From: Kappaphycus alvarezii
Lineage: Eukaryota > Rhodophyta > Florideophyceae > Gigartinales > Solieriaceae
NCBI GenBank assembly: GCA_002205965.3
Contig: NADL03000504.1
Location: 248,001 to 312,000, forward strand
DNA: 64,000 nt
Reading direction: 5' to 3'
Shown piece by piece: positions 11,691-64,000 of this stretch (positions are counted from its first letter, which is position 1; each line of letters begins with the position of its first letter). The position numbers were made by a program, and so were the translations under genes. The notes under the pieces were generated by a model. It saw only the letters and a program-made list of their open reading frames with translations, ran no database searches and was not told where the DNA came from.

Positions 11691-12245
11691 TTTGGGGGGG
11701 GGACTTTTAATGTGTTCAAAAACCTGAACCATACAGGTAGTAGTTACACTAGAAGACTAGAGGAACATCTCCAGGCGACGGCTGAATCATCTCCCACTCC
11801 AACAAGGACAAAGGGGGGACTAGAAGAAAATTCGTCCTGCAGTGTACACGATAGATACTCAATGAAGTAAAGTTTCTTCTGACCATCTAAATACGGGATC
11901 CAGACAGCTTGAAAAACTTCTAGTGTAAGCATGACAACTTACAGACAATGACAACCAAGACGAAAACTCCGGACGAACGAACTTGCCAACGGACTGACAG
12001 GGCTGCGCAGACTACGTTCCTTCGGAGACTGTAACAAAGACAGCAGGTTGAAAAGCGATAGGAAACAGCGAACTTTGAAAACCCTGTTCGAGTGGAAGGG
12101 CCGTCCTTACACGTCTTTCCCAGGTCGTCCCACGTGCGCTGGGGACGCGGAAGGACAATCCACTCGAAATAACCATCAGCAACAACGGTGCAGCGAGAGA
12201 TCTTGAGTCATGGTTGTTCCGTCGCCAGGACATGCGAGCGGACAT

Positions 12246-30084: not shown

Positions 30085-30205
30085 TGTGACGATGATCGAT
30101 GTCTCCCCTTGCTTGGGTGAACTCCGGCTACTGCATTCGCTCCTTTTATTCTGACCCGCCACGATCTTTGGACCCTGTGCGGTCCATGCTCCTTACAGTG
30201 ACACA
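30085..30205 (-). repeat. 5' LTR of copia A, inner part
   Basis: This part of the copia A 5' LTR adjoins the internal region. It matches 25296-25416 and stops at ACACA, where element B is inserted. The other part of the LTR resumes at 36828. Confidence 0.85.
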
Positions 30206-30611: not shown

Positions 30612-30649
30612 CTCCCTCTCTTTGCCCTGAACTATTGTTTTCTCCATCA

Positions 30650-33600
30650 TTAGTCAAGAATTACCCATTGTTGAACAGGTAGATCACACTTACTTGTTGT
30701 GATAATGTAATTCAGTGCATCACACTTTGCGATCTTCGCGAAGGCGTCTGCGGGGTTGTCCGCAGTTTGCACAGATCCAACATTGGATATTTCCTCTTTT
30801 GCATATGCATCCCTTACAGAACTAATATCAATCATAAGGCGTTTTTCCAAAGTAGAGGAACACTTGGTGATAACATCAAATAGACTTTTGGAGTCCTTAA
30901 ACATGAGAGTGGAATTTTGATTCCAAGCAGAGATTCAAGGTCGTGCTTAATCATGTAGCCAATATCGAAGGCATCGGAAAAAGCATAAACTTCGGCACCT
31001 AGTACAGATCTAGTTACTCTGCAACTTTTGTGACTAGAATAATTCAGCATATTAAAAGTTCCTGTCTTGTCAGTGAGCAAAACGATGTATCCAAGTTGGT
31101 AAGTATTGTCGTCGTTGTTTGCGAATGACGAGTCAGAATATACTTTCAACTTTATAGAGTTTTTGTCCAACTTGTAATACTTAAGCGACGAACAAGGGTT
31201 GTTCTGCACATGCTTTACAACTTTGTTCAACTGCTTTATTGCTTCCACTGAGAATTTGGTTTCAGTCACTTGCGCGGCCATGTTAACAGCACAACATATT
31301 TCAGGCTTTGTATGTGTTATCCAAGCCAATCTATGCCTTAAAGATCTGAATTCAGAAAAAGAGGCGTCCATCGGCAGAATGCGTAACTTCTTTCCTTACT
31401 GTTCCTGACTTAACTCAAATCCATAGTCAGTTCTCTTTACTTTGACACCTGCAAATACAGTTTCATCCAACTCCCCTTCTCTCGACTCAAACTTATCAAG
31501 AGTCTTTTGGGACAACTTAACGAATTAATTGTTGCCACAAAGTAGAGAATCGTCCACATATGTTCCAACTAGTCCCTGAAGTTCTCCGTTTGTATGCATT
31601 GAGAAGAGTGCGAGGTCTCCATCGGTTGGCGCCATGCCTAGATCTTTCTTCATGTGTGAAGCCATAGTTCGATTCTAATAGTCTTCTGAATCGGATAATC
31701 CGTAAAGAGGTTTCAGGAACTCGAGTGATTGGTTCTTAGGTAATCCAAAGTCTTTGGTTGGTCAAAGGTAAACTTTTCGCGTTAGAATTTGAGCTGACTG
31801 TAAATAAGCCTGTTTAACATCTTGAGACCAAATCTTGAAATCGTGTATTGCATCAATTGCAACCAACAAGCGTGTGGAACGCTGGCGTATAGTCGTGGTT
31901 TCAATATTCGAGATAGTTCTTTTCTTTTTCCCTATGAACTTGTACTACAATCCGTGCTTTTTGTATCTCTTTGTTAGTGTTCTTATTTTTGATTGACCGA
32001 ACGAATATTCCAGAGAGGATAATAGCATTATTTGGTATGTCGTCTTTTGCGACTATTTTCCAGGTATTTCTCTCAACAATTCCTTCTATTTATTTCTGTT
32101 TCGCCCTCAGAAATTCAGCCGAATTGGATCTGGGATCTCGTGGGGGTAAAACTCCATTGAGATTGATGTCAATAAGTTGAAGATTTTTGGAGTATACCAT
32201 TTCAATTGATGAATGCAAAGCTTCGACTAGTGTTTCAACTTGATCATCAAAATATGGCTTTACTTGAGAGCGTGAATGTTGCAATTCCTCGCCTTTTCCG
32301 TCAACAAAGACTTGTCTGTCATTAATTTTCGCGATTTTGTAAGGTACTGTCCACTTAGGTTTGGGCTTTTCACGATAGACTAGAACTTTACTTCCAATGT
32401 GAAGTTCATGGTGAGCGGTATTTGGAAGCTGCGAATTCAGAGCGGTTCTGAGTCTGAGTTCCGAGGTGATAGTTTCCATCTCAGTTCTTGCAGTTTGGAG
32501 CGCTCTCATTCGTTCCATTTGATTCGGAAGTTCGCTATTCATGGCCGGAAACCTCGGTAAAACTCCAAAGACGAGTAACGATGTAACTAGTCCTTTTGGG
32601 TTCATAGTATCGTTCATAGACTTAGCGGCGAGACGTAGAGCGAGTTCTACTTCAATGTCAGGCTCTGAATGGCGAATCTTGTGGTAAACACGGCATAATG
32701 GATCATGGTAACCTTCACCAGAACCAATAGAATTATGACTTTCAACTCCAGATAGGCTGATTTTGATTCCATTCGATTTTACCAAATCTTTCCACGCTTT
32801 GGAAACGAATTGAATACCTTGGTCCACTTTCATTCTATCAGTAAATCCAGTGTAAATTGTAGCCTAGCACTCAAGAAAAGAGTTCCAAATAGATTCCGTA
32901 CTTTGACTGCGTAGGAATACAGCATTACCGAAATGGGTTTGCGTATCCATGATATGAAGTACAGGGTTTTTGTCAAGAAAAATGATATCAAGAGCTAAAT
33001 CTTGATTAAATATGATTCAATTAGGCATACTAACCTGGAATGATCTGGGTTTCGGTTCAAAGAGCTGACATGTGCGGAACTGTTTAGATATCTCCGAAAT
33101 CAAATCTCGCGTCTCGGGAGTTGCTTCCTCTAGTCTAGCTCCGCTTATCAGATTGTACAGCTTTGAGGCAGACGGATGGAAAAATGTAAATGGAGGCGCT
33201 TTAATTGAGACTTTGTGAACAGAATTTCAGAAAAAGCACACACGGCGTAAAGATGGACGTGTTTGCGTGTGATTGGCATATCCAATCCATGTCTTTTGGA
33301 CACAAGTAGGTTTTCAACGTTATCTGCAACAAGTCCAAATTTGTCTAAAGCTTCCAGGCCAATCGAGAATGGAATATTGGCATTAACTACATCGACGAGT
33401 AGCGGGATGAAAGCACCTTCAGGCGTTGGAATACGAATTGTAATCTGTGCAATGCTTAGAAATATTCCATCGCCAAACTTGTAAGCAGTTTTCACGTGAA
33501 GACGTTTAATCTTAATCCCAGCTGGGTCACAATATGCCTTTGCTTGTGATTTTCCAGTCACTGATTATTGAGCACCAGTGTCGAGACACATTCCGTGGAA
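30650..33600 (-). pseudogene. copia B pol: protease, integrase, RT, RNase H
   Basis: Read downward. Protease active site LDTGAQ (about 33565-33585) is intact but followed by a TAA. Then come IKRLHVKTAYKFGDGIF and VNANIPFSIGLEALDKFG. Integrase (32090-32833) shows DQGIQF, SHNS and the GEGYH glutamate, then a C-terminal VYREKPKPKWTVPYKI domain. The RT keeps an intact TYVDDSLLCG (about 31545-31575) but has several in-frame stops around it. RNase H (30832-31371) has VYSDSSFAN and LGAEVYAFSDAFD. A frameshift near 30904 leads to FKDSKSLFDVITK and EKRLMIDISSVRDAYAKEE. Best-preserved copy of the family, but not intact. Confidence 0.85.
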
Positions 33601-35797: not shown

Positions 35798-36419
35798 TCG
35801 GCGGTCGGCTTTACTGTGCAGTCATAAAGGACCCTTTTTGACTGTCAGCAGCTGTAATGGCCTGGGGGGCTGTAACTGACAGTAGACGGCGAGGTACAAT
35901 GGGTAGATCTGAAACTTGACCTTGAGTAGAATCTGAAACGACGTCGGAGGAACCTGACTCTGAAACCGTCGGGACAGCTCTTACTTTCTCATTTTATCGT
36001 AGAAGATGGCCCCGGATTTGTCTGGACTAGTGATTTCTGGGTGCCACGTGTAGACCTTTGATTGGCTGACTGTCCACTTGGCAATACCTCTTTGGTCTCG
36101 GTAGACGGCCCACTTGGCGAAATTGGTGTGGCTGACGTATTTCTGGGTCTGACTGTAGGGGTAGGGGCGTACTGTACAGTAGAAATCAGCGTACAGAGAC
36201 CTGATCTAGATTCCAGTGCTGTTCTGGATCTGCTTGGGCCAGGCTGGCTTCGTGGCTTTCAAGCGTATTGCGGTTCTTATTGGTCACTAGTTAGTGTTCG
36301 AACAGAATTTAAAAATACGTATTGTTATTATTTACAGGCTTACACGTGGCTCTAAACAAAGCGGTCGAATATCAAATAGTCTTACTTCTTAAATTATCCG
36401 AAAAACGGTAAATCCGGAT
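35798..36419. other. copia B 5' leader region
   Basis: Non-coding sequence between the zinc-finger frame and the 5' LTR. It contains a partial direct repetition (GTCCACTTGGC near 36070 and GCCCACTTGGCG near 36108). I could not identify a convincing tRNA primer-binding site next to the LTR at 36419. Confidence 0.4.
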
Positions 36420-36827
36420 TGTCGCGAAAATTCAAGGGATAAAAAGCAGACTGGCGGCGTTAGTGACGAGCCTGAAAACACTGTAATCGTTTATGTCTAA
36501 TATAGACAAGTTGAGTAGGTTGAAATGAAATTGTTGATGTTGTTTTTACTTCAGTGCCGAAGGCGGGTAGGCCTTTTACAGGCAGTAGATGCCGTCGTCT
36601 ATCTCTAGCACATCCACTAACTCCTTACTAGATTCCCTAGCGGATAGTACTGCGGACGGCCCTAGTGACCCTTACAATACGACAGTCCTAGCAGGCATCG
36701 CTAACAGCACAATAGGATAGAGAAAATATAGACAACATAGGATAAAAAATAGAAGTAAGGGGAAAAAATTACACTAGAGTACTGTAATTAGAACATAAAT
36801 AAATTATGTGTATCGTGTATTTCAACA
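36420..36827 (-). repeat. 5' LTR of copia B
   Basis: 408 bp, bounded by TGTCGCG (36420) and TTTCAACA (36827) on the + strand, i.e. TG...CA in element orientation. See 30206-30611 for the partner. Confidence 0.88.
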
Positions 36828-36940
36828 ACACCCTGAACTACTCTCCTACTGTATGCCAATACTGGTCCCTTCAGCCGGACCCAGAGCCCCTGGCCATTAT
36901 TTTCTATCCTTTAGCGCAGTACAGAGAACGATTCCCAACA
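36828..36940 (-). repeat. 5' LTR of copia A, outer part
   Basis: It resumes the A LTR interrupted at 30205, matching 25412-25531 (CTGAACTACTCTCCTACTGT, GAGAACGATT, CCAACA). It is followed by the target duplication GTGTC at 36941-36945. Confidence 0.87.
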
Positions 36941-40730: not shown

Positions 40731-42570
40731 ATGCCCTTCCTTCTCAGCTTCTCCCCCTCCATCCCCCTCCGATCCCTTTTGCCCCGCACCACCCAACTCC
40801 AAACGCCAAACCGTCGTAGACCACAAATGTCTACTCCCACACCCGCTCCTCCTTCCCCAGGCTCCTCAACTTTCTATCCCGCTCCCTCGAGGGTGACCCA
40901 GCTCTCTCCCTCTCAAAGGCAGAACAAGCCTTCGCTAATCTCAAATCTCGCCGTCCACGCCCCCCCCATCCCCCTTTGTTTCTACTACTACTCGCCCCCA
41001 CTCACCTACCACCACCTTTGATGTCGTCATCATCGGTGCCACCCTTGGTATCTTTTACGCTACAGCCCTTCAATCCCTTGGTTGGCGTGTTATTGTTTTG
41101 GAAAGAGGCGCAGTGCAGGGTAGATTACAAGAATGGAATATTTCCCGCCATGAGCTTTCCGCCCTCGTGCAGAACAATGTTCTAACCGCCGAGCAGTTGG
41201 AGGACGCTATTGTAACTGAGTTTCTTGCCCCAGGCCGAATCGGATTTGCGATGCGTGATGGCTCTACCAATGAACTTGGCGTCTCCAATGTCCTTAATGT
41301 TGGAGTCGCCCCGGATATACTCGTCGCAACAGCGAAAGCGAATTTTCTACGTCTTGGAGGAGTCATCAAAGAGTACTGCAATGTCCAACGCGTTAGCGTT
41401 GCCCCAGACTCTGTCCGTATAGTCTTGCGCCGTGCCAAGGTCAAAGTTCAAGGTGCGTTGGGCGCCGGGGGAACTGGTCTTCTGGGTGATGTGGCTGAAG
41501 AGGAGGAACAAGTTCATGCCCGTGTATTGGTAGACGCTATGGGTGCCTTCTCGCCCATTGCAGCTCAGACAAGAGGATATCGTAAGCCAGATGGCGTCTG
41601 CATCACAGTAGGCAGTTGCATGATAGGCGATTGGGAACAGAACGAGACCGGTGACTTGATATATTCCTTTCAACCGATCAACAAGAAACGGAGCACCCAA
41701 TACTTCTGGGAGGCCTTTCCGGTTGGAAGGGACGCAAGAGCGAGGACAACGTACATGTTTTCATACGGCCCTTGTCAAGAACAGAGGCAAAGCTTGACAG
41801 AGGCTTTGGAAGATTATCTGGATGGGCTACCTCAGTATCAGGGAGTTGATATCGACAGTATGACCGTCCAGCGGATATTGTTTGGGTTTTTCCCTACATA
41901 TTTTCGAGACAGTCCGACCAATGTAGCCTTTGATCGAGTGCTACCAGTGGGGGATGCAGGAGGACTGCAATCACCCATTAGTTTTGGAGGCTTTGGTTGC
42001 TGCTTACGCCATTTGGGAAGAATAACCGGCGCTTTGAACGAGGCACTCTGTCAACCTGATGACTCGTTACTCAAGCGCTCAAATTTGCAAATGCTGCAGT
42101 GGTATCTCCCATCTTTGCTGGTTGCAGGGCTTTTCAACAAAGCAATGTCTGTACAGCCCGGTCAAACCACCGCGGGACCTTTGCTTGATGAATATGGCAT
42201 CAATGAAGTGTTGTGGTCCAATATGAGGGCCATGGCTGACCTTGGCGAACATGTCCAACGGCCTTTTTTGCAGGACGTGGTTACCGCTGGTGGCTTGTCT
42301 AAAACCTTAGCAGCAATGGCGTTTCGAAGTCCCGTCCTCGCTGTTAAAATGACAGCATTCCTTGGCCCCGGGGAACTTTTAAGCTGGAGCAGGCATTATG
42401 TTGCCCTTCTCCTCTATGGTGCATCTGTTCCATACCTTAAACTCCTCAAGGCCATCTCGGAAAAATCAAAGCAGTTGTCATTCGAACAACGATTTCGCTT
42501 GAACCGGCTCATTGATGCAGCAACATATGGAAGTGGCCGAGACGCAGAGGGAGAACTCGCACAGAGTTGA
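40731..42570 (+). CDS. lycopene-cyclase-like FAD oxidoreductase, probably plastid-targeted
   Basis: FAD/NAD(P)-binding protein of the lycopene cyclase-like family known from plants (At2g32640 type); the reaction is unproven. The dinucleotide-binding fold is at 41017-41105: FDVVIIGATLG, then VIVLERG. The family core reads GDAGGLQSPISFGGFG (41953-42000), followed by LRHLGRITGAL and RPFLQDVV. The C-terminus is hydrophobic and ends RLIDAATYGSGRD before the stop at 42570. To reach an ATG the frame must shift twice by minus one base, near 40857 (C4) and 40960-40975 (C8/C5). This gives a start at 40731 with a Ser/Arg/Pro-rich leader (MPFLLSFSPSIPLRSLLPRT) resembling a transit peptide. The start is inferred. 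The 3' 1100 bp from 41621 are duplicated at 48247. Convergent with the nucleoporin-like gene. Confidence 0.82.
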
Positions 42571-42720
42571 GGTAAGTAGAGGTTTACGTCTTAGTAGATT
42601 GAGCAGTTAAACACAACACAAGGCAGACCAAAGTAGTTTCAGAAAACCCTTTACTCGAGAGTTAAACTACAACTGGCCTTTGGACCTTATCAGGGCCGCA
42701 ATTTTCTGATTTGTAGAGCA
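41621..42720 (+). repeat. tandem duplication unit 1, left part
   Basis: 1100 bp (3' half of the cyclase-like gene plus about 150 bp downstream). By eye it is identical to 48247-49346. The original continuation of this unit (nucleoporin tail) resumes at 47159 after the inserted non-LTR element. Confidence 0.92.
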
Positions 42721-42779
42721 GGAAGGAAGTTTAATGCGTTCAGTATCTACTGGGGACTGCGCACGTCCTAACTATACGG

Positions 42780-45700
42780 TTAAGATCTAACCGGGTGTGC
42801 TTCGTCGTCCATGCGCATCGGGGCTCGCGACGGGATAGCTTCAGCGATGGATGACCAGAGGGTGCAACTCAGTCGCTGGTAGATACGGCGGCGGATAACG
42901 CCAACTGTCGAGTGACACTTGGACGCGATCCGCGGAACTAACTCCTCGATAAATGCAATGGTTCCAGGGGAAGGGGCACCTAGGGAATCAAACGCCAGAG
43001 GTCGAAACGTGAAGTTCGGCGTGTAAGGCGCAGAAGATGGACCAGTTGAGGGAGCGGGGAGGCGTCGGGCGATGTTGCGTTCCAGGGTTGTGACCTTATC
43101 GCGGGCCGCCAGTTCAGCAGCGCCTCCGGCGACCTGGGTCGCCTTGGTGCGAACTGCGGCCTTAAACGGTGAGACGACAGTGATGTCACAGGCAATGTGG
43201 CGCAACGTTGTGCCTTCCGGGGTTGGGGGCGGTTGTACAAGGATATCGGCGGGCCGGAGCTCAGTGCCCGGGACGAGGAACGGAACCTCGTGCCGAGTAT
43301 CCAGACCCGCGGCGCGGGTAACGTGTGTCGCAATCGCATTACAGAGCGAGTTATGGCGGTGACGACGGCCGAAACCAGGGCAGCAGAGGTCGGCGGCGTG
43401 ATCCCCGAGGGTGTCCAAGGGGTGGTCACAGTGGTGGCAGTTGAGGGGCATGGAGTCATCATACACTGGCAGTCCGAGGTGACGGCGGAGCATGGTCTGC
43501 CAGTGTGTGGTGTGGACCTTCGTAGCTGCCGTGGGGTGAGCGAAGAGAAACGCCGCAGCGGGGCTGCGGCGGAACGCTAGGCCACGGATGCGATGTCGAA
43601 TGTCGGCGTCGCTGTGTGCGGTCGGGTTTGGGGCATTCGCCCAGGAGTCGTCGTGCCAATGTACTCTTGCCCGCGCCTCTTGCTGCACCCGTTTGAGAAG
43701 GGTTAGAGTGTTGGTGGGTGAAGCAGCTAGAGTTGGAGGGTCAAGGGTGGAAAGGTTGACTATCCCGGGGATGGAGAGGGCGAAACGGCGGAGAGAAGGC
43801 CCAGCCTGACGGAGGAGGAAGGACCGGTCGCCGCGGTAGCGGCCAGAAGCAAGTGCACAAGCACGCGGCGTGGCATATGCGGAAGTTCGCTGCCGTGCGG
43901 GCGCAGCATCAATGATGCTGGCGGCGGCAGCGCCGTGGAGGCACGAGGCGATGCTTTCGAAGCCCTGACCTCCGAGGTGCATGGGGAGGCAGACTTGGTC
44001 CCAGGCTCGGTTCGTGAGAGCTATGCCGTGTAACTTTTCATATGATGACCGTTGTAGATCATCAAATTCTTCTGCGGCGGACTCGGCTAGGCGCGGATCT
44101 GAGAGCTTGAATGCATGCGATAGGAGGCATGCAGAGGCACAGATCCGGTGCATGTGGAACCGGGCGCGGGCGTCGCGGACCAGCAGGAGGCGGTCCAGGG
44201 TCAGGCGGCACTGAGCAATCTTGGACCGGAGAAAACTCTCCGTGAACGTTTTGTTCCCAATGGGGGCCCCTAGAAGCGGAAAGCCGTCCCGCGAGCATTC
44301 TGCGAGAGGGAATTCCGCTAAGAGGGCTGCTCGATCCTGCGGCATGACGTGAGGCCAGTATATGCGTGTCTTACGTGGGTTGACATGGAAGCCAACCGTG
44401 GGACCATCTCGGGCAAGGAGCCTGAGCGCCTGACGGATGGCGCCAAGGTTCCCGACGATCGTGCCGTCATCGGCGTACCATTGGCAGAGAGCAATGTTGG
44501 GGATCTCAGCAACCCGACGGATGAGCGGTTGGATCGTTAGCGAGAACAACAACATGCTGGCCGGGTCACCCTGTTGGGTGCCCTGGGCACTTGGTATGAC
44601 GGTGCGATCCCGGTTCGGGACAAGCAATGGCGGTTGCATTCGGCCGTAGATCATGTTTGCGAAGCGGGCTAGCGAGGGGGCGAGCATTGGTAGGTGGTCC
44701 AGCATAGACTGCCGATCAACGCGGTTGAAGGCGTTGTTAGCGTCTATGAGGACCGTGGCGACGTTCGGGGTGGCGAAGAAGCGGCGTAGTGTCGTGCGGG
44801 TGTCGTGTACAATAGAGTCCAACCCGGCTTTAACACCATTGGCCGTCTGATGCGGCGACAGAACCGAGTGTGAATCGGCTATTGCGGCGGGGAGCAGTGC
44901 CTTCGTCACTATCCTGCGAAGCACAGACCCGATGGCGATCGGGCGGACCTTGTCGGGAGTCGGCTGAAGCGGGAGGAGCGTCGCCGCTGCCACGAGGGGG
45001 AGCACAGCGTCCGGGAGCTCCCCCGTGCGAGCCGAGAAACGAGCTGTGTGAGGACACGCAGACCGGTCACGCCGGCTTCGGGACTGACGCGAGTCTTAAC
45101 CAGAAGGTGGAACCAGCGCGACGGCGTTCGTTCGGGTCCGGCGGTGGTGTCCCGCGGGACGCCGCGGACCGCGTGTTCCACAGCAGCCTCGGTGATGCAC
45201 GGGGGCGGCGGGAGCCGTCCTTCCGGGAGCGGCGAGACAGGGCTCGGCGGGGACGGGTGCAGGTCCCGGAGCCGCTGAATCGTCGCCGGGTCGTTGACGT
45301 CGGCGAGCGGGCCATTGTGGAGGGCGCGCATGGCCTTACCGTATCGCGCATCGGCGCAAAGGGCTCTGCACGACGGGCGCGCCCGATGTCGCCGGGGACT
45401 GTTGGGGCGTACAGCGTGTTTCCTTCCCACCATTCTAGCCGAGCCTGATGAGCTGCGAGAGCTTCGGCCCAGAGTGCTCCCCACTGCGAGCCCGTGTGCG
45501 CACGACGGAGGCGTTCTCGGAGGGCGATCCGTTGGCTCTTGGGGTCCCGCCATCCGCGCTCTCCCCGAAGACAGCGACGGAGGACAGCCGTGGGCAGCAT
45601 GTGGAGGTGAAGGAATGCTCGTTGAGTGGCGTCTTCCCCACGAGCATTCGCCGCAGCTTTGACCAGCTTGATAAACAGGAGGATAAATTGGGTGAGGCAG

Positions 45701-45834
45701 GGAGCAGGGATATCTTGGAAGATATCCGTGTCGCGGTAGGGTGTTGAGAGGATTTCCATGGGAGTGGGCAAGGGGAATGACGCCGATGTATCATGCGGCG
45801 GGGGGTCCGATTCCATAGGGTGGACCGGATCCAT
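42780..45834 (-). CDS. E1 ORF2: reverse transcriptase with C-terminal REL endonuclease
   Basis: About 1018 codons from the ATG at 45834, with apparent minus-one shifts near 45385 and 45010. The N-terminal region (PTAVLRRCLRGERGW) is shared with E3. The RT spans 45000-44200: DKVRPIAIGSVLRR, LIDANNAFNRVDR (motif A), TQQGDPASMLLF (B), CQWYADDGTIVG (C), LGAPIG (E). After a linker, the C-terminus has C-X2-C-X8-H-X4-C (CHHC ... GDHAADLC, about 43450-43385), RHRHN, then EVPF, LRPADILV and CDITVVSPF. This finger-RHN-E-RPAD-D order is the R2-type endonuclease, with RPAD where R2-like elements have R-P-D. No APE or RNase H domain seen. It is the most intact ORF2 here; the two shifts may be assembly errors. 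Confidence 0.87.
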
Positions 45835-45851
45835 GGTGGGGAGGAGCGGAG

Positions 45852-47095
45852 TTAGGCCGACTGGCCTCTTGGCTGATGGTGGGGCTCCTCCGCACCTTGT
45901 ATGCCAGCCATCAACGGCTGCATGGGAACGTGAGATGCGGACTCATTACCCATCGTTGCCGCGGAGGCGACGGTGGGAGGGAGAACGGCCGTGGGCGCCA
46001 GAGGTGCGTTGGGCACCATAAGAAACTCCGACGCCTGGGCGTCTTCGGTTGCGGGGCATCGGCGTTTTGACGCCGACGGGGAAGAGCCCGGGGACCGAAG
46101 TGTGAGGTCGGATGTGTGTTGAGGAGCGGGCGGGGAGCGGCAGGGGGGAGGATCGTGTGCCCCTGTTGGGGCGTTTAGGGGCTTGTGCGGGGCCGGGTGA
46201 GGTCGGGACGGGTTTGGTCGGGGCCGGGGCGGTGGGTTTGACGGGATTTGGGGCCGGTGTTTGGGCGGGCGTGCGGGCGGGAATCCCGCGGGTCGGGCGG
46301 CGCGCCTCAGCAATGAGGCGGGCATCGTGACGGAGGGCGATCGTCATGGCGTTGCGGACGTGGGGGGCAACCCACGAGCGCAGTTTGGGGCTCACCAGGC
46401 GAGCCGCTTCACGTTGGAGGCGGGTGGCCACACCCTGGGCGGCAGAGATGTCCAGCGTAGAGCAGTGCTGCGTGAGCGTAAGCGGCGCAACGTATAGGTC
46501 CGGATACGTCAGACGGAGATGAGCGAGGACGTTGAAAACGTCAGGGCGAGCCGGGGCGGGAAAGTATAAGTAGAACAATTTCCCGACGAGCGGGACTAGG
46601 ACGAAGGGGGCAAGTTTGTCTTGGCAAGAGCGGCGGCCAAGCAGAGCTGGCGGTGTGCTGTGTCGAACGATGGGAAGGAGGACGTAGGGGACGGGGCGAA
46701 CCCTACGTGGAGGAGGTCGGGGGCAGGCGGGCGAACGGGTTCGGGTTCGCCCGTGCGGGGGTCAAGGCGGCAAGGGTTGTCGGTGACGGTGGGGAGGAGG
46801 GCGCGGGCGCGGGCAAGGTCGGCCTGGGAAAAATCTTCCGGGTGGCCAATCATATGGCGCGCCTTCGGAGATTCAGAATATTGTGGCCAATAGCGGGGTC
46901 GATTTCGGGGAGCTGCACCGATGGTAACGGACGCAGCGAGGAGGGGGTGGCTGGGCGGGGTGGAAGACGGGATGCGACGACCGCGTACGGCGCGCGCATC
47001 CAGGGGGAAGGCGTCTGCCCGGTCCATGTGGGCGGAGAGGGCGGCCGCGCGGGAGACGGAGAGGGAGCGGCGGCCGCAGGAAGGGGGGGAAGTCA
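45852..47095 (-). CDS. E1 ORF1, proline-rich
   Basis: Predicted ORF1 product upstream of ORF2 with an 18-bp gap. The first in-frame ATG is at 47095. The N-terminal part is Arg/Pro/Ser-rich. A more structured block follows (GHPEDFSQADLARARALLPT; then FNVLAHLRLTYPDLYVAPLT; then LVSPKLRSWVAPHVRNAM). The C-terminal third is a Pro/Ala-rich low-complexity tract and ends in an acidic/Met-containing tail. At least two frame changes are needed (near 46590 and 46200-46320). I recognise no RRM, CCHC or coiled coil, so its RNA-binding role is only assumed by analogy. Confidence 0.55.
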
Positions 47096-47158
47096 TGGGA
47101 GTTGGGGGAGTGGGGAGGCATGATGGAGAAGGACTGATCAATGAGCGGTTGTGGGGCA

Positions 47159-48249
47159 AGCCGTGGTCTAATGTCTCCGCAGTACTAAACCGTAGATTTC
47201 AGCTGGCTCAAAAATACCGCAAACTCCGAGGTATTAATAACAGCAGACGACTGTACTGGAGGGACAGCCTTCAGCATTAGTGCCCTTACAGTTCCTAACC
47301 GCTTTCGCAATTCATCCTTCATTGCTTGCGTCAAAGATCCTTGATCGTTGTAGACTATCACATGAGTAATCAAGAGATGAAGTGCGCTGTCCATGATAAT
47401 TTCTAGTACGGCACGACGTTCGCCTTCTGCCCCACGAGTCACCTCAGTACAGGCATAATACAGAATGGCAACAAGGGCTCCTAAACTTGGACTCTCTTCG
47501 TCTCTTGACATAGATGGGTTAAAGAATAAGGTATCCAAAACTTCCGACATACGGCGCAGTGCAACGAGAGCATTTCCTAGAGCACGATGAAGTGATCTAG
47601 AAACCTCCTCGCCGAAGTAGACACCAGAATTTGTAATGATGCCTGACCCGAACGGACCCCATGGTGAAGCAGGAGACTGGTACTGTGCATTCGGTGTATA
47701 GGGAGTTGAACCTTTAGGTGAGTGGAGTTGTGGAGTACCCGGCATCCCGGGTGAAGGCGAAAAATGACCCGGGCTTGGCCATTGTTTGTGGCTGCTCCCA
47801 CCAATAGCCGCCCGCAAAGCGTGAGAAGGAGACATTTTCTTTGGAGAGCTTGGTACGGAGTTTCCAGTCTGTGAGGGACTTGAATGCCACGGTGATGGAC
47901 TCATCCCACGAGCATTGGTATTCAAACCATCCCCGTCAGTCCGTAATAGCTGGCTTCGCTCTCGCTCCTGCCGTGTAACTGGCCGCACCCATCTCTCGAT
48001 GGGTTCCGCTCGAATCAATCGAAACACTTGAGAAGGGAAACAAACTAGTCTCGATACAGCGTTTCCAAAAAGCTCTGGTAGTGCCTCTCTAAGTTGCAGA
48101 GCGTAGTTTGAAAGCCTAAATAAGGTAATAGATGCGACCTCGGCCTCCTCAACTCTCCCTATGGTCAGATACTTGCTACTCATTCCAGCCTCACTGCGCT
48201 GTGAGTAACCTCTTTCCTCACTAGAAAGAGAGGAGGGCCAATCTCCTGA
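47159..48249 (-). pseudogene. duplicated nucleoporin-like C-terminus (unit 1, right part)
   Basis: 1091 bp matching 49347-50437 with four substitutions found by eye. It carries the last about 330 codons of the nucleoporin-like gene without promoter or N-terminus, so it is a truncated copy. Two substitutions change the protein (Arg to Leu and Glu to Ala near the C-terminus). It is joined at its upstream end to sequence of the cyclase-like gene at a 3-base microhomology TGA (48247-48249). Confidence 0.92.
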
Positions 48250-49346
48250 TAGGCGATTGGGAACAGAACGAGACCGGTGACTTGATATATTCCTTTCAAC
48301 CGATCAACAAGAAACGGAGCACCCAATACTTCTGGGAGGCCTTTCCGGTTGGAAGGGACGCAAGAGCGAGGACAACGTACATGTTTTCATACGGCCCTTG
48401 TCAAGAACAGAGGCAAAGCTTGACAGAGGCTTTGGAAGATTATCTGGATGGGCTACCTCAGTATCAGGGAGTTGATATCGACAGTATGACCGTCCAGCGG
48501 ATATTGTTTGGGTTTTTCCCTACATATTTTCGAGACAGTCCGACCAATGTAGCCTTTGATCGAGTGCTACCAGTGGGGGATGCAGGAGGACTGCAATCAC
48601 CCATTAGTTTTGGAGGCTTTGGTTGCTGCTTACGCCATTTGGGAAGAATAACCGGCGCTTTGAACGAGGCACTCTGTCAACCTGATGACTCGTTACTCAA
48701 GCGCTCAAATTTGCAAATGCTGCAGTGGTATCTCCCATCTTTGCTGGTTGCAGGGCTTTTCAACAAAGCAATGTCTGTACAGCCCGGTCAAACCACCGCG
48801 GGACCTTTGCTTGATGAATATGGCATCAATGAAGTGTTGTGGTCCAATATGAGGGCCATGGCTGACCTTGGCGAACATGTCCAACGGCCTTTTTTGCAGG
48901 ACGTGGTTACCGCTGGTGGCTTGTCTAAAACCTTAGCAGCAATGGCGTTTCGAAGTCCCGTCCTCGCTGTTAAAATGACAGCATTCCTTGGCCCCGGGGA
49001 ACTTTTAAGCTGGAGCAGGCATTATGTTGCCCTTCTCCTCTATGGTGCATCTGTTCCATACCTTAAACTCCTCAAGGCCATCTCGGAAAAATCAAAGCAG
49101 TTGTCATTCGAACAACGATTTCGCTTGAACCGGCTCATTGATGCAGCAACATATGGAAGTGGCCGAGACGCAGAGGGAGAACTCGCACAGAGTTGAGGTA
49201 AGTAGAGGTTTACGTCTTAGTAGATTGAGCAGTTAAACACAACACAAGGCAGACCAAAGTAGTTTCAGAAAACCCTTTACTCGAGAGTTAAACTACAACT
49301 GGCCTTTGGACCTTATCAGGGCCGCAATTTTCTGATTTGTAGAGCA
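48247..49346 (+). pseudogene. duplicated cyclase-like 3' half (unit 2, left part)
   Basis: Copy of 41621-42720. It encodes residues from GDWEQNETGDLIYSFQ to the natural stop at 49196 but lacks the FAD-binding N-terminus and any promoter of its own. The frame is fully open for 304 codons and I see no substitutions, so the duplication is recent or has been homogenised by gene conversion. It ends in the empty site that defines the E1 insertion. Confidence 0.92.
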
Positions 49347-50437
49347 AGCCGTGGTCTAATGTCTCCGCAGTACTAAACCGTAGATTTCAGCTGGCTCAAA
49401 AATACCTCAAACTCCGAGGTATTAATAACAGCAGACGACTGTACTGGAGGGACAGCCTTCAGCATTCGTGCCCTTACAGTTCCTAACCGCTTTCGCAATT
49501 CATCCTTCATTGCTTGCGTCAAAGATCCTTGATCGTTGTAGACTATCACATGAGTAATCAAGAGATGAAGTGCGCTGTCCATGATAATTTCTAGTACGGC
49601 ACGACGTTCGCCTTCTGCCCCACGAGTCACCTCAGTACAGGCATAATACAGAATGGCAACAAGGGCTCCTAAACTTGGACTCTCTTCGTCTCTTGACATA
49701 GATGGGTTAAAGAATAAGGTATCCAAAACTTCCGACATACGGCGCAGTGCAACGAGAGCATTTCCTAGAGCACGATGAAGTGATCTAGAAACCTCCTCGC
49801 CGAAGTAGACACCAGAATTTGTAATGATGCCTGACCCGAACGGACCCCATGGTGAAGCAGGAGACTGGTACTGTGCATTCGGTGTATAGGGAGTTGAACC
49901 TTTAGGTGAGTGGAGTTGTGGAGTACCCGGCATCCCGGGTGAAGGCGAAAAATGACCCGGGCTTGGCCATTGTTTGTGGCTGCTCCCACCAATAGCCGCC
50001 CGCAAAGCGTGAGAAGGAGACATTTTCTTTGGAGAGCTTGGTACGGAGTTTCCAGTCTGTGAGGGACTTGAATGCCACGGTGATGGACTCATCCCACGAG
50101 CATTGGTATTCAAACCATCCCCGTCAGTCCGTAATAGCTGGCTTCGCTCTCGCTCCTGCCGTGTAACTGGCCGCACCCATCTCTCGATGGGTTCCGCTCG
50201 AATCAATCGAAACACTTGAGAAGGGAAACAAACTAGTCTCGATACAGCGTTTCCAAAAAGCTCTGGTAGTGCCTCTCTAAGTTGCAGAGCGTAGTTTGAA
50301 AGCCTAAATAAGGTAATAGATGCGACCTCGGCCTCCTCAACTCTCCCTATGGTCAGATACTTGCTACCCATTCCAGCCTCACTGCGCTGTGAGTAACCTC
50401 TTCCCTCACTAGAAAGAGAGGAGGGCCAATCTCCTGA
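49347..50437 (-). repeat. tandem duplication unit 2, right part (inside the intact gene)
   Basis: This is the source-side copy of the nucleoporin-like tail. Together with 48247-49346 it forms the uninterrupted 2,188-bp duplication unit. The offset to unit 1 is constant (2,188) from 47159 to 48249. Confidence 0.92.
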
Positions 50438-56499: not shown

Positions 56500-59480
56500 C
56501 TCGAAGAAGAAGAAGACTTTACCAAGCAGAAAAGGGGGGCTAGCGGCTCTCATAAGGGGAAAAATCTATCCGAGCCAGGAGCGGTTGAGTTGTCGTCGGT
56601 TGATCGCGACAGAAGTTCGTTGTTGTATGAGCGAACTGATAATCGTCAACAAGCGATCACGCTCGAAGGCAGGGCTACTGCCTTTCCGTGGAGCGATGTA
56701 CTCAGCAATTCTGGACAGACCTCGTTCGGCACCGGGACAGGCAGACCTGTATATATCGAAAGCCATCGGGTGGAAGTCGATACGTAGTTCGGCGCAGAGG
56801 TGGCCATAGCGGAGAGATTTCGCGCGCTCAGATGCAGTAAGGGCGGCGAGGGGCATGTGAATCCGCTGTTGGGCGTATGGAGCGGAGTGGGGGCTGATGA
56901 CAGTGAAGTCGTAGCCCTGGGGGACGGGAGAGAACTGGACATCATCGATATAGATGTCGACGCGGCGGCGGGAGTTGGAGGGTCGGGGCAAGTCTTGCGG
57001 GAAGGTCCATTCCCGGACAGGGCGAATCCCAATTGATAAGCGTGATACCTCGGAAATGAGGCGGTCGCGAACATAATTGTAGCGCCGAATGGAGCCGTCT
57101 GCGCAGGGACAGACAGAGGCATGGTGTCCGTAGGAATCCAGGGTGGGGACAGTGCGGAAGTGGGCGGCGGCGCAATAGGTGCAGGGTTGTGTGCCAGAAA
57201 AGATGGGGACACCAAGACGGAAGCAAACCATGGTTCGCCAGACTTCAGGAGCGGCCCGGGTACCGAGATGGCTCTGCGGGAGGTTGTGAAAGGGACGGGA
57301 GGCGTGGGAAGAAGCGACGGAAGCTAGGCGGCGGAGTAGCCGGGAGCCTTCGGAGGAGGAGAGGTCGACGGAAGAGAGAAGTCTGGCGCGAAGCGCCTTT
57401 GTGATCTCAGCAGTAGCGGTTGTCTGGAAGTCAGACAGGCCGGGGAAGAAGAGGCGCGGAGGCCAGCAAGGACGGCTCTGGGGAGAAACTGTCGGGGAGG
57501 CTGTATTTGGCCCGGATAGAGGCAAGAGGCGTTGACATCAAGGGGAGACGTCGAAGCAATCACCGAGGAGGAGGCGAAGAAGTGGGTAGGAGGAGAGAAC
57601 AGAGCCAGCGTAGCATGCCTCTGCGATGGTTTCGATTAGGGGAAGTCCGAGCCTTCCCATACGTAGTGGAAGCTAGGCGGTGAGCCAGGCACTGTCTGGG
57701 AGACGACGGTGCATGTCTTCGAACACCCTTCGCATTCCAGAGTCAAAGGTTTGAGCTCCGGAAAGAGTGAGATGCGGCGGGGTGCAGCGAAGAACATAGA
57801 TCAGGCGGCAGGAACTGGCACAGTGTCGCAGTAGTTGGTAGCCCAGTTGAGGGTCATTCAATCCGGAGATGCGCGACCAAACCTCGGAAATGGCATGTAC
57901 GCGGGAGGCAAGAAAAGACTGGCAGCTTTGCGGGGTGCCGATTGGGGATCCGAGGACTGTCACGGAATTGTGGGAAGGTATCGTGCAGGGTATGGCACAC
58001 CGAAGGGACGCGGGGAGGGGATCCGGGCCAGGACGCCATAGCGTTGTTTTCGCCATGTTGATAGAGAACCCGAGTGGCTTTCCACGGTCTGAGATGAAGC
58101 GGAGAACCTCAGAAGCGAGGTTGACAGGGACGATGACGGTACCGTCGTCCGCGAACCAAGCGTTTAGGCGTATGGCGGGAAAGCGTGATGAGAGCTGGGT
58201 GACCAATGGATGGATGCCAAGGGCGAACAGGATGCTTCCGAGCGGATCTCCCTGGTGGGTGCCTGTGCGACTGTTCAGGATGTGTGAACCGAACATGAGC
58301 GTGGAATCACCTCCACACAAGTAGTGCACAAACCGGGCGAGGTCGGGGATATGGTTGGCGGTCTCGAGCAGAATGTTGTGGCGCTCGATTTTGTTGAACG
58401 CGCTTGACGCGTCAATTTGAAGGAGAGCGAAGCTGGCGCTGTCAGGGCGGGTGGAGAGAACCCGTGTCGCATGAATGACGGCTTCTGTTCCGTGGCGGAC
58501 TCCGACGGCGAGCTGGTGAGGAAGGAAATAAGAGACGACGGTGGGTTGTGTAGACAAGCGCCGAACGACGAGGCGGCAGATGAAGCGTCGAAGAACCGTA
58601 CCGATGGCGATGGGGCGGAGACTGTCGCCGCGGGCCTTTGGGATGCCGAGTAGGGTAGCCCCGGCAAAGAGATGACGGAGCTCAGTTGGGAGTCGGCCGT
58701 CCACGGCAGAGTTCACAAAGATTGTGAGCTGAGACGGGGCGGAGCGATCTGCGGTATCACCGCCTGGTGCATGGGAGAGGGATTTGAAGACGGATGGGCG
58801 GAGGCCGTTAGGGCCCGGAGAGCTGCGGTGTGGTAGGAAGGCGAGCTGACGGCGAACCTCGGCCTCCGTAAAGACAAAGGCGGGGGGCAGCAAGTGGCGC
58901 GGAGTTGGGGTAACCGGGACACTTGGAGAGGGATGCAGGGAAGCAAGGAGGGATTTGTTATGGAGAGTAGACGGTGCCGGTGAGGTGGTAGAGCAGAGGG
59001 CGGCGACAGCCTTAGTGAGGGCCCCTGCTGGAGAAAGCGGCGGCAGCGGGTGGTGGGAGAGGGGTGGGAATAGGAGGTGGATGGCAATGGGGAACCGAAG
59101 GCGTCAAGTGCATCTGAATAGAGCGTTTGCCAGCGTCCTTCCATGGCCATGGAGATGCGGGATCGGAGAAGCCGGTGGACGGAGGCGCGGTTGCGATTAC
59201 GGGGTTCGCGCCGGCCGTTTTTCCGAAGGACCAGCTTTCCAACTGCGAAGAGACGGGTGAGGCATTCCACGCGATATGCAGGGGAGTGTGCGTGGTTGTA
59301 GGCATACAGAAGGCAATAAAAGAGATTGTGGAAATCGGAACGCAGAGAATTGGGCAAGTAGGAGATGGACGGGATCGGAAGTTGAAAGGTGGAGAGGAGG
59401 GAGGGACAAGATTCGGAGTGGTAACTGGCGGTCGGCCGGTATGAAGGTTCCACGCGAGGCCTACTGGTCATCGTCCATAG
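56500..59480 (-). mobile_element. non-LTR retrotransposon E2 (second subfamily)
   Basis: Minus-strand element with a single recognisable long ORF2-type coding region (59474 to 56566). The 3' side runs into CTTCTTCTTCTTCG in element orientation (near 56500-56513), possibly its terminal microsatellite tail; the exact end is not defined. Subfamily relatives are the fragments at 8880-9845 and 18657-19015. It lies directly 5' of, and in line with, E3. Confidence 0.75.
56566..59474 (-). pseudogene. E2 ORF2: RT with REL endonuclease, frameshifted
   Basis: The first reading block, after MTSRPRVEPSYRP (59474), runs to about 58900. The RT follows (58893-57673): EVRRQLAFLPHRSSPGPNGL, SLRPIAIGTVLRRFICR, LLQIDASSAFNKIER (A), GTHQGDPLGSILFALG (B), NAWFADDGTVIV (C), VLGSPIGTPQ (E). 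A frameshifted linker (57670-57530) leads to the C-terminal block (57525-56566) with APEVWRTMV, CTYC, SYGHHASVC, RRYNYVRD, EWTF, RRVDIYIDD and YDFTVISPHSAPY. The endonuclease signature is present, with R-V-D in place of R-P-A-D and RYN in place of RHN. At least three frame changes; probably inactive, unless some shifts are assembly errors. Confidence 0.82.
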
Positions 59481-59521
59481 ACTCCGGAATCGGAACGTGT
59501 TCAAGTACGGAGTATCCGGCG

Positions 59522-59545
59522 CCCGCGGGCGGGCCCGCGGGCGGG
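59522..59545. repeat. GC-only 12-bp tandem repeat
   Basis: CCCGCGGGCGGG occurs twice in direct succession, just upstream of the inferred ATG of E2. It can form strong secondary structure. It may belong to the 5' leader of E2. Confidence 0.7.
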
Positions 59546-59800
59546 ACAACAGCGGCTGGATGGGGCGAAGGTACTGTAGAGGCGTCTGGAGATGAAGGTC
59601 CAGCCCGCGAATGATGCAAGTTATGTTGTACAGTGTATACTGTACGAACGGTCGCGGCCAATCACAGGCCACGACTGATCTGACTTGGCACACCCAATGA
59701 TTTGTCCTAAACAGCCAAGTGGCCGTACTACTGTGTTGTTAGGTTCGTCTTTTGTCATTGGTGTACAGTCCAAATGTGCAACGTTGCAAAGTACTTAAAA

Positions 59801-62800
59801 TTAAGTTGGAATTGAGTGACTACGCTCTACGTGTTGCGGTGCGCGACAAATTACGGATGCTGCACATGTTGACCAGATTGAGTAGCTGAGCTTCTGATAC
59901 AGGCGAGTCTTCACTCCCCCAGTCGAGCATCCGCTACGAGACGCTACTGCTGCCGCGTATGTCTCTATAACCTTGGATGTTTCTAAAGAGGGTGTTCCTA
60001 ACGAGTCGAAGGCTAGTGGTACAAAATCCCATCCTAGCCTTAATCGTCCCGGCATTGCCTCGCATGGAATCGCTGCCACTTTCGTAGCTAAGTCTCTCTT
60101 CTTCCGCTTTCCTGCTGCGTTTGCAACAGCTCGCGCTTCTCGTGCTGCCATTGACTTATAGCTCTCTTGGAACGGGGATGATGCAGTCACGTCATACGCC
60201 ACTGGGAGAGGGGACTGGGTGTTTGTTGCATTAGACCTTGGGTACACCAGAATGTCCGCGGGTCGCGCGTTCAGTCCAGGAAGTAGGTACTTCACTTCGT
60301 ATTGAACGCTGACTCCTGCTGCCTTGAACAGCTCTCGGCCAAGTACCTTTACAACCGCTGTGTGACGGTTGGTCCATCCGAGACCTTTGTTGCATAAGTC
60401 TGCTGCATGGTCTTCTAGAGCGTCCATGGGCCTGTGGCACTCCGCGCACCGCAGCGGAGCAGTGTCATCAAATACGGGCACTCCCAGATGGCGACGGAGC
60501 ATTACTGTCCACATCTCGTCGTACGTTCGGTTGACCGCAGACGGATGCGCAGTCAGGAACGCTGCTGCAGGCGTCCCCATGTATGCTTGGCGGCGAATCC
60601 TTCACCGAACATCTTCTTCCGAGTGCATTGCGGGTTGAGGAATCTCGCCCATTCATCATCCTTCCAGAAGGACTTTGCTGCCGACTCGCACCAGGCTCGA
60701 TACAGAACGTTGTGTGGATTATGGGCTTGGCAGCAAGGCTGGCCGCTGTCAGTGCTTCTGGAAGACTGCCTTGTTCGTTCGGAAAGGATGCTTGGAGCTG
60801 TCGTACAAAGTCCCGAAGGTGTCCATCCGCTTCCGCGTACCTATACTCACGGTGTTCTAACGCATCGGGCTCGTCAGGGCATCACAGTTGCTCGGCTTCA
60901 ATAATGCTCACCGCATACGCTGCGATATTGAGCGTCGCAACAGGTGTGAAGCCATGGCCGCCATATCGCAGAGGTAAGGATACCTGCTGTCGAACTGCAC
61001 CGGTCATCGGCACATTATTGGAGCGCGAGTAGAATTCCAACTGTTCTTCATCAAATCTCATTGCAATGGCAGTGGACACATCCGGCGGCGTTAGCTTCAC
61101 CACATGTTGAAGCTTGCATGCCGAGGCACATACTCGGTGAAGATGAAACCGAGTACGAGCGTCTCCGATACCGTCGATCAGCGATAAAGTGTTCTTACAG
61201 CCGCTGATTTTCTCATTGAGAAAGTTTTCCATGAATTGGGGCGTTCCAATCGGGGCGCCGAGGAGGTCGATGCCTTCAGTGGAAAAGTTATCTATAGGGA
61301 AGCGGTGCAATAGTGGCGATGTACGGTTGTCAGGCTGGCGCGGCCAGAAGAGACGTGTTTTCGCCGGGTTCAAATGCAATCCGTGATCGGGTCCCCTTGC
61401 ACTGAGGATCGGATTGCTTTGTGGAGCTCCGTATGAGTGCCTATGAGGGTGCAGTCATCGGCATACCATCTGTGTAGACTGAGCTGAGTTCGCCCGGCAA
61501 TTTCTGTTGCTAATGGATGCACTACAAGGGAGAACATGAGCATACTTGCCCGGTCCCCTTGTTGCATCCCTTCTTGGCTAGGGATGTCTTGTGCAGACGC
61601 CACAGGCAGAATTAGCGAAGGCTTGTTGCGAGCGTACAACATGTTCAGAAAACGACATAGCGATGGTACCTTGGTCGGGAGCAAGTTTATCATGCGCTGT
61701 CTGGAGAACCGATTGAAGGCATTATGTGCATCCACGGACACTAGTAGTGCGTACTCTTCCTTGTTGCCCTGGCACTGTACCAATCTCCGTGCATCGTGCA
61801 CAATGGAATCCAGTCCGCAGGGCACGCCATTGGCCACTTGAAGGGGTGTAAGATATTCTCTCGTGTCTTCCAGTGCTTGTGGTAGAAGCACCTTTGTTAC
61901 AAGTCTCCTCAGGGCCGTCCCAATGGCAATGGGGCGAATCTTATCTGGCCGAGGTTGGATGGGCAGCAGCGTCGCAGAGGAGATCAAAGGAATTGTGTCG
62001 TCTGGAAGGTCCCCATGGGCTAAGCTCGTCACAACAGCAGTTAGCACCGAGATGCCTGTCACTCCTGCTTCGGGACTCACGGTTGTGTTGGCCAGCAAAC
62101 GAAGGAGCCGCGGGGACATTCTGTCCGGGCCCGGCGTGGAGTTTGGGTTAAGGCGTCGGACAGCGCGCAGAACCGCCTCTTCAGTGATGTCCATCGGGAG
62201 CGGAAGGTCTCTCGCTTGGATAGCTTTCACCGGAGACTGCGGTGCTGGGTGCAGTTCTTGCAGACGTTCTATAACCTGCGGGTCTCGCACGTCGGCGATG
62301 CGCGACTGATGTAGCGTGCGCATCGCACGTCCGTATTGTGCGTCTGCTGCCAAGTGGGATGCTCGGCGAAACTTCGGGTCGTGCTTACTGTCAGTCTGCT
62401 GGCGGCGACGCCTAACGATTCTCTCTTCTCTGGTCTTGTGGGCTTGAATTGCTTCTGTCCAAGGTTCATTCCATTCGCCAGCGTTGGCACGGCGGATGCG
62501 TTCGCGCAGTCCTTGGCTTTGCCTTATTTGAGACCGCCATCCGGCTTCCCCACGCATTAAGCGTCGCAGAACTGCAGTGGGAAGAAGGTGTATTCGGAGG
62601 AGGGTGGCATGGACTGCATCGGCATTCCGTGCGTTTGCCGCAGCGCGGAAAAGCCGTATGAGTAATATGGCGAGGCTGTGCATGCAGTTTGCGGGTATGC
62701 GGTCGAAGATGTCCGAAGGTCTTAGCGGGCTGTGCAATGCATCGTAAACCGTAGGGAGGGACGTGGCTTGCGTGGACCATTCGCGGGTTTCTGAGGAAGT

Positions 62801-62812
62801 CATTTGAGGCAT
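59801..62812 (-). pseudogene. E3 ORF2: RT with REL endonuclease, frameshifted
   Basis: About 1000 codons. The ATG at 62812 opens MPQMTSSETREWS. A shared N-terminal PTAVLRRLMRGEAGW block follows, then NPNSTPGPDRMSPRLLRLL. RT motifs: DKIRPIAIGTALRRLV, LLVSVDAHNAFNRFSRQ (A), MQQGDRASMLMFS (B), HRWYADDCTLIG (C). A minus-one shift near 61375 leads to LFWPRQ and LLGAPIGTPQ. A stop and two more shifts follow (60885, about 60710, about 60580). The last block has CAECHRPMDALEDHAADLC (the C-X2-C-X8-H-X4-C finger), NRHTAV, YEVKYLLPG, RPADILVYP and YDVTASSPF. Every catalytic signature is present, but the frame breaks suggest it is inactive or poorly assembled. Confidence 0.83.
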
Positions 62813-62821
62813 TGCTGCGGG

Positions 62822-63338
62822 CTAGGGAGAAAGAGGGGAGGGGTTAGTGGCGTGATGTCCTGATTGCCCGTTGTCCCAATGGGGGGCAGAGTCACGTTTT
62901 GCCGTCTCCTTCCGCATGTCTTTCATCCGCTGTGACAGGGCGCGGGTGCGGTTCGTACGTCGCTCGGTCTTCGCAGTCGTCATGGGTGGGGCTCCAAGAA
63001 CGGGCTTGGACTGTTTAGGGTGCTGAGCGGCGCTTGTTTCATTCGGTTTGGCAACCGGCAAGTTGGTAGGCGACGGGTCCGCAGTTTCTGCGGGTGTGGG
63101 TTTTGTGCCTGTTTCCGATGGTGCAGCGCTTTTGGGTTCTTCCCGGACTGTAGCGGGTTCCGGTATCTCCACTCCTTCGTCTAGGGTGTCCGTGGATGTG
63201 TGTTGGTGGGCCTCTGCTGGAGTATTTGGCTCCGGAGCTGCACAGGGGTTGTCCTGTGCGTCTGGTACATCCTGTTTGTGGCCATTGGTATGCGCATCGT
63301 CAGCTAAGGGTCTGTCTTTTTCTTCAGTTGCCGGTGCC
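62822..63338 (-). pseudogene. E3 ORF1, C-terminal part
   Basis: An open frame rich in Pro, Thr, Glu and Ala. It ends with a basic segment (TERRTNRTRALSQRMKDMR) and stops about 9 bp before the ORF2 start. The N-terminal part is missing because of truncation at 63338. By chance the frame continues into the RT fragment of E4 to the right, making a 387-codon chimeric open frame. Confidence 0.6.
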
Positions 63339-64000
63339 AAGTCGTGCCAATGTACTGTTGCCCGCGCCTCTTGCTGCACCCGTTTGAGAAGGGTTAGAGT
63401 GTTGGTGGGTGAAGCAGCTAGAGTTGGAGGGTCAAGGGTGGAAAGGTCGACTATCCCGGGGATGGAGAGGGCGAAACGGCGGAGAGGAGGCCCAGCCTGA
63501 CGAAGGAGGAAGGACCGGTCGCCGCGGTAGCGGCCAGAAGCAAATGCACAAGCACGCGGCGTGGCGTATGCGGAAGTCCGCTGCCGTGCGGGCGCAGCAT
63601 CAATGATGCTGGCGGCGGCAGCGCCGTGGAGGCACGACGCGATTCTTTCGAAGCCCTGACCTCCGAGGTGCATGGGGAGGCAGACTTGGTCCCAGGCCCG
63701 GTCCGTGAGAGCTATGCCGTGTAACTTTTCATATGATGACCGTTGTGGATCATCAAATTTTTCTGCGGCGGACTCGGCTAAGCGCGGATCTGAGAGCTTG
63801 AATGCATGCGATAGGAGGCATGCAGAGGCACAGATCCGGTGCATGTGGAACCGGGCGCGGGCGTCGCGGACCAGCAGGAGGCGGTCCAGGGTACGGCGGC
63901 ACTGAGAAATCTTGGACCGGAGAAGACTCTCCGTGAACGTTTTGTTCCCATTGGGCGCCCGATGTCGCCGGGACTGTTGGGGCATACAGCGTGTTTCCTT
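63339..64000 (-). mobile_element. non-LTR element E4, internally deleted fragment close to E1
   Basis: Nearly identical to E1 44265-43640, i.e. the RT thumb and linker region (AHAFKLSDPRLAESA in the E1 frame is here SHAFKLSDPRLAESA). At about 63952-63960 the sequence jumps to that of E1 near 45376 (GCGCCCGATGTCGCC), so about 1.1 kb covering the RT catalytic core is deleted. It runs off the window at the right. Very high similarity to E1 indicates recent activity of this subfamily. Confidence 0.82.

Follow-up and report, generated by a model that had tools for sequence, protein, structure and literature searches.

Clusters of LINE elements in algae are familiar from Zepp, an L1-type LINE, and the Zepp-like clusters of green algae resemble the clustered algal LINE described here. 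Dualen/RandI elements are likewise known from algae, and a two-ORF structure is known from SLACS and CZAR. A close comparison is offered by R2, whose proteins in the PDB (R2 and R2Tg) combine a reverse transcriptase (RT), a linker, a CCHC knuckle and a restriction-like endonuclease (RLE), a DNA-cutting domain of ancient type. According to PMC4640811, the RT and RLE organisation of CRE/SLACS, NeSL, R4, HERO and Utopia can be likened by description to that reported below, Dualen possesses an APE domain in addition to its RLE, and LINEs of the RLE type are mostly known as target-specific, with four of the clades mostly so and HERO, the exception, largely non-specific. The knuckle that precedes the RLE is given as CX2-3CX7-8HX4C in PMC5678591.

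The stretch of DNA analysed here (hereafter the window) comprises 64,000 nucleotides of the Kappaphycus alvarezii contig NADL03000504.1 (positions 248,001 to 312,000 of the forward strand); three matches to the phycobilisome family fit a red alga as its source, unless they stem from contamination. It contains E1, a subfamily A element of 4408 nt on the minus strand (42721..47128), whose 3' end lies at 42721 and whose 5' end at 47128 was placed by means of other long copies. All E1 features given here are on the minus strand. The interval 42780..45834 does carry ORF2, as had been supposed, but not as a single open frame: the coding sequence changes frame near 45.4 kb and again near 45.0 kb, so that it occupies three frames, and a remnant of ORF1, also with frame breaks, lies at 45852..47121. 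Open copies (L017 and L021) exist elsewhere. In L021, ORF1 encodes 424 amino acids, and an ORF2 of 1018 amino acids begins 17 nt past the ORF1 stop codon in a different frame and encodes RT, CCHC knuckle and RLE in this order; open ORF2 frames of 1053-1056 amino acids are present in some other genomic copies. The separation of ORF1 from ORF2 stated in the preliminary description is thus seen in the open copies and also in the E3 subfamily, where ORF1 is broken in the copy that was read (L095). The ORF1 pieces of subfamily A and E3b are weakly alike (E 0.013), and a PDB search with ORF1 gave nothing beyond chance-like matches (best E 0.44).

In E1, the RT domain is located at 44358..44957 (PF00078, E 1.1e-10), with its YADD motif at 44466-44477. 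The CCHC knuckle follows at 43383..43439, and the RLE core, delimited by translation, alignment and profile, at 43143..43364; within the core, translation places RHN in 43350-43364, the E motif in 43278-43292, RPADILV at 43236-43256 and CDITV at 43176-43190, followed by K residues. The same YADD-CCHC-RHN-E-RPAD-DIT series was read from E3 (59804-60580), while E2 (56569-57525) carries a variant with RYN and RRVD, so that the motif order initially proposed for these three elements is borne out by translation. One detail of the knuckle requires correction: its C-X2-C and H-X4-C parts were rightly described, but the middle spacing in E1 and E3 is X9 rather than X8. The knuckle stands in the expected place and order, with a spacing one above the published X7-8 range.

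Across five family members, 32 columns of the RLE alignment are invariant, and this conservation, together with a low dN/dS over the RLE, shows that the motif series is not a product of chance. The dN/dS values for E1 against L021 were 0.010/0.096 for ORF2 and 0.017/0.143 for the RLE; ORF1 of L009 and L021 gave 0.054/0.165, and the comparison of L095 with L096 gave 0.158/1.424, with dS near saturation. ORF2 and the RLE are hence under purifying selection, with dN/dS at about 0.1, and this selection speaks for function.

A profile of the RLE alone, built from the five members and searched against 177,635 PDB sequences with E values up to 10, returned a single match, the R2 protein 9nl2, at a non-significant E of 0.79. 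This alignment spans the domain (CCHC, RHN, E, (R/K)P, D) and sets the proline of R-P-A-D on that of K-P-D in 9nl2, with the aspartate one residue later. A two-sequence RLE profile found no match in the PDB, and a fragmentary six-row profile found four chance-like matches there, none of them an RT. The RT itself is of the LINE type, as judged from PF00078, the sole Pfam match of the L021 ORF2, and from its PDB matches of the R2 and LINE-1 types: a profile of A, E3 and E2 yielded ten of them, named R2, LINE-1 ORF2, RNA-directed DNA polymerase or reverse transcriptase-like protein.

It is this RT that lends some substance to a different reading, in which the element would be an APE-type LINE with an unrelated C-terminal domain. 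The best RT-profile match, R2 (1.2e-14, 56.5 bits), is followed closely by an L1-like RT (5.6e-14, 54.2 bits), and in single-sequence PDB searches L1 ranked above R2 for a 741-amino-acid part, whereas R2 came first for the whole ORF2. Neither ORF of L021, however, matched an APE domain in Pfam or NCBIfam at E values up to 10, in searches whose HMMER filters drop most weak matches; the RLE profile found R2 alone; and both R2 and R2Tg show a second, weak aligned stretch at CCHC-RHN, in the same order and almost equally far from the RT (356 vs 352 positions). We consider an APE-type element highly improbable. An RLE-type non-LTR element, as first suggested, is supported by the R2 match at E 0.79, the order shared with R2 and R2Tg and the lack of an APE match, but it is not proven, and on these sequence comparisons the family would be a LINE of the RLE kind in a two-ORF form.

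By the tests made, the family is not a member of the R2 clade. It differs from R2 in having two ORFs, dispersed targets and no N-terminal zinc finger or Myb match in Pfam, and it has R-P-A-D where R2 has K-P-D. The gap from this aspartate to the next D measures 19 residues in E1 and 20 in E3, in contrast to 12 in the R2 protein 9nl2, which also has X8 in place of X9 in its knuckle. Insertion into 28S rRNA genes, the hallmark of the R2 clade, was not seen: 60 sampled flanks varied, and E1 itself is flanked by two long open frames in the window. Dualen is set apart by its APE, a domain for which the present family gave no match.

The family is abundant. A search of 336.02 Mb in 884 contigs with the E1 ORF2 gave 68 matches from the best 60 of 24,212 candidates, a good number of them 94-99% identical, and a search with the RLE of the E3 subfamily gave at least 147 matches at 71-100% identity. 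Scans of viral contigs and other genome contigs confirmed no relatives. Within the window, E1 is accompanied on the minus strand by the related E2 (seen over at least 56569..59693, broken frames; RT at 57676-58893, RLE at 56569-57525), by E3 of a related subfamily (59804..63340, outer limits approximate, frames broken and ORF1 5'-truncated here) and by E4 (63341..64000), an E1-like fragment (97%) with an internal deletion that adjoins the 5' side of E3 in the same orientation and is cut off by the window end. On reading, E4 jumps from the 45.4-kb part to the 44.27-kb part of E1. The plus strand carries a short 3'-end insertion of subfamily B found by pattern match (11834..11879; 43 nt and a TTC tail). 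The window further holds an inverted repeat pair of about 1 kb (1654-2687 and 30771-31806, 85% identical) and a direct repeat pair (30205-30617 and 36418-36834, 87%). In L095, a further reverse transcriptase-like frame fragment with WYHDDG for YADD (339-896) lies upstream of the E3-like element.

The borders of E1 can be read from its surroundings. Its 3' flank is repeated with 100% identity within the window (41621-42720 and 48247-49346), its 5' flank with 99.45% identity (47149-48249 and 49337-50437), and the overlap of the two flank repeats by 10 bp marks an empty site at 49337..49346, inside the tandem copy of the flanks. A third locus on contig C837, about 97% identical, is continuous through the site without E1, and the empty locus and the flank overlap together identify E1 as an insertion with a 10-bp target. 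The target copy on the 3' side (42711..42720, TTGTAGAGCA on the plus strand) is identical to the empty site; that on the 5' side (47149..47158, TTGTGGGGCA on the plus strand) differs at 2 of its 10 bases. Several other long copies start at CTCCATCATG, and the initial 20 nt of the inserted sequence (47129..47148), absent from the other long copies compared and from the empty site, are therefore read as filler. At the opposite border, a short pyrimidine tail, CTTCC (42721..42725, from border comparison), adjoins the 3'-end signature of subfamily A (GATACTGAACGCATTAAACTTC, 42726..42747, by pattern match). E1 sits almost exactly in the middle of a unit of a 2.2-kb tandem duplication (41621-50437) that is absent from the homologous contig C837; this duplication is perhaps an assembly join of two alleles. 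Among the best 40 scored matches to the L014 flank there was no homologous empty locus, and the flank of L073 has an identical counterpart on C25, where A ends are listed at the same 1933-bp spacing.

The 60 sampled flanks, which vary, lend no support to site-specific insertion into a single gene family, and there is no Rfam match within the window. Target selectivity, which the preliminary description had considered possible, has weak support: the insertions are scattered, yet a single nucleotide of the high-copy repeat X (at least 40 copies at 97-100%, the best 40 scored of 311 candidates) has been used at least twice, in L038 and L082. The uninterrupted ATCATTGCTGGCATTTTG is found in the X copy L133 and in 19 of 20 further X copies, L132 being short of one T there, and the twentieth, L139, bears a diverged A end in this position, perhaps a third insertion. 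At the X site, the A copy of L131 retains 164 nt and that of L134 no fewer than 1351 nt, a difference that speaks for separate insertions. A single old insertion, later shortened in L131, is conceivable in the strict sense, yet the 5' junction of L131 falls at the very same base. This shared site is the best evidence for target selectivity. Repeat X is 98.6% alike in L132 and L133 over 3.2 kb and has gag-like open frames by eye. As to local sequence, 63 external flanks (52 from the A-end sample and 11 from long copies) were compared with pyrimidine runs within the window: the pyrimidine-purine step at the junction reads TG in 29 flanks, the window value being 30%, and CG in 3, the window value being 20%; since the first base of this step may belong to the element tail, a mild preference is the most that these figures indicate.

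A consistent target site duplication was considered and rejected. Of 33 micro-inserts, 30 did no better than shuffled pairs, the other three sharing words of 26, 33 and 13 nt (the last a simple ACAGT-type repeat), and none of the 10 long copies counted stood out; E1, whose imperfect 10-bp copy this test misses, L026 and L095 are not among the ten. Reading revealed duplications of 41 bp with one mismatch in L048, of 17 nt in L117 and of 10 bp with two mismatches in E1. A tail derived from the target is ruled out for E1, L048 and the X site, where the tail is absent from the empty or repeated sites.

Subfamilies A, B and C, defined by their 3' ends, occur in large numbers. The A pattern has 2135 genomic matches with at most one mismatch (control 19), the B and C patterns 1324 and 1038 with at most two (controls 0), and two A patterns more distant from the 3' end 1720 and 1403 (controls 0). 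The tails that follow A ends are (TTC)n, (TTTC)n or similar to CTTCC/CTCC. For closer study, 60 of the first 67 exact A ends listed were sampled, omitting five in a C21 cluster (taken later as L097) and two that lie within the stretches of neighbours. Of these ends, 33 keep just 17-38 nt of the element, as judged against one reference with mismatches allowed and with a search pattern that fixes the lower limit at 16 nt, and 20 of the 33 start 25-28 nt from the 3' end. Among the other 27, L081 has 54 nt left and L076, which lies behind another A end, 29 nt; the remaining copies continue in the direction of the end of the sampled sequence, some of them mismatched. Three A micro-insertions (L031, L043, L079) were seen, on reading, to occupy different positions within or close to a single other repeat (TAAAATAACCCAA).

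In the minimum-energy fold of the A 3' end, a single-sequence prediction, a GGAC-GUCC stem is positioned just 5' of the 25-28 nt boundary, which points to a hairpin-linked stop of reverse transcription that may operate in subfamily A only. The centroid fold differs and does not retain the stem for both forms of A, and the same hairpin is missing from B and C. In a sample of 20 of the first 26 B ends listed (six near other ends were omitted), nine keep 23-39 nt without a sharp peak, the lower value being equal to the length of the B search pattern, three keep 44-61 nt and eight at least 69 nt.

Immediately after 8 of the 60 sampled A ends comes a family copy in the same orientation; among these eight, L036 was assigned by reading and L071 and L076 by matches of close to 70%, and L038 represents a perfect tandem duplication of 58 bp. 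In L043, a C end follows 98 nt further on, and in L064 an A copy in the opposite orientation comes next. Over 82 loci, of which 20 were picked for long ORF2 matches and two (L097, L098) for clusters, 38 of 125 A, B or C ends have A sequence within 45 nt on the same strand, each repeated unit being counted. Two further regions merit mention: A ends recur about every 7 kb in the same orientation at C30:171347-192516, and C-type 3' ends recur mostly every 522-526 bp in one orientation at C129:203324-211518, a satellite-like arrangement.

How such arrays arise can be viewed in several ways. R2 proteins are described in PMC11371274 as jumping between templates in vitro, and head-to-tail repeats as the major class of 3' junctions made by a nuclease-dead R2 in cells. 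A comparable process may operate in the family studied here, since six loci (L018, L020, L022, L027, L035, L097) have 3'-end copies of about 9-37 nt lodged between the members of an array, which fits template jumping. The main rival to template jumping holds that new copies enter the 3' ends of family members and restore the target each time. The listed junctions do lie at A, B or C 3' termini, in a survey that covered the sequence downstream of such ends; neighbouring ends, taken from 170 listed on C1-C39, have the same rather than the opposite orientation in 31 vs 6 cases within 10 kb (p 2e-5; tandem duplications inflate the 31) and in 52 vs 44 cases at greater distance; and in L117, a B copy, what stands before the repeated target, GTTTCTTC, is identical to the 3' end and tail of the element itself. 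Serial self-targeting is nonetheless unlikely in our view, as the tiny copies between array members are more simply explained by re-initiation repeated within one event, 52 of the 60 sampled ends have no family copy directly after them, and the shared site in repeat X is, by eye, unlike the 3' end.

Plain tandem duplication certainly makes up part of the array structure (L014, L022, L038, L097). That unequal exchange or assembly artefacts should account for the arrays in the main is less likely still: identical junctions recur within L014, L022 and L097, L038 is exactly duplicated, and the 2.2-kb tandem duplication of the window is missing from the homologous stretch of C837, but the junctions that do not recur vary in truncation point and linker, and neighbours can come from different subfamilies.

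We regard it as probable that E1 is one member of a two-ORF family of non-LTR retrotransposons that is autonomous, has been active recently, encodes an RLE of the R2 type and moves by abortive, template-jumping target-primed reverse transcription. The borders, the two ORFs, the RLE motif order, the purifying selection, the copy number, the micro-insertions, the arrays in one orientation and the one shared site are observations; the nicking, the hairpin stop and the template jumping are what we infer from them. The ORF2 protein would bind the 3' end of its own RNA, and the RLE would nick the target with a mild preference at most and with occasional hotspots. The RT would then prime at the nick, giving rise to a short (TTC)n, (TTTC)n, CTTCC or CTCC tail, and would often halt after 25-28 nt, just 3' of the predicted GGAC-GUCC hairpin, to leave a micro-insertion, or alternatively jump onto the 3' end of another family RNA and thus build a head-to-tail array.

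The literature matches listed for algal or two-ORF LINEs with an RLE, or for the host, hold no description of the family, which is weak evidence that the two-ORF form, the spread and the insertion products of this RLE LINE are undescribed. A bolder proposal, which we advance as a doubtful but possible one, is that of a red-algal lineage of two-ORF RLE LINEs in which a hairpin of the 3' UTR governs reverse transcription, so that about half of the events would stop within 17-38 nt and others would hop between RNAs, with probably more than one thousand micro-insertions, self-built arrays and RLE hotspots in other mobile elements as the outcome. Insertions of some 20-30 nt from a 3' end are probably easy to overlook in repeat annotation. 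With its high copy number, dispersed insertions, open copies, unoccupied homologous site and numerous short products, the family constitutes a natural data set that bears on target choice, stalling and template jumps of R2-type enzymes, and is relevant to R2-based gene insertion.
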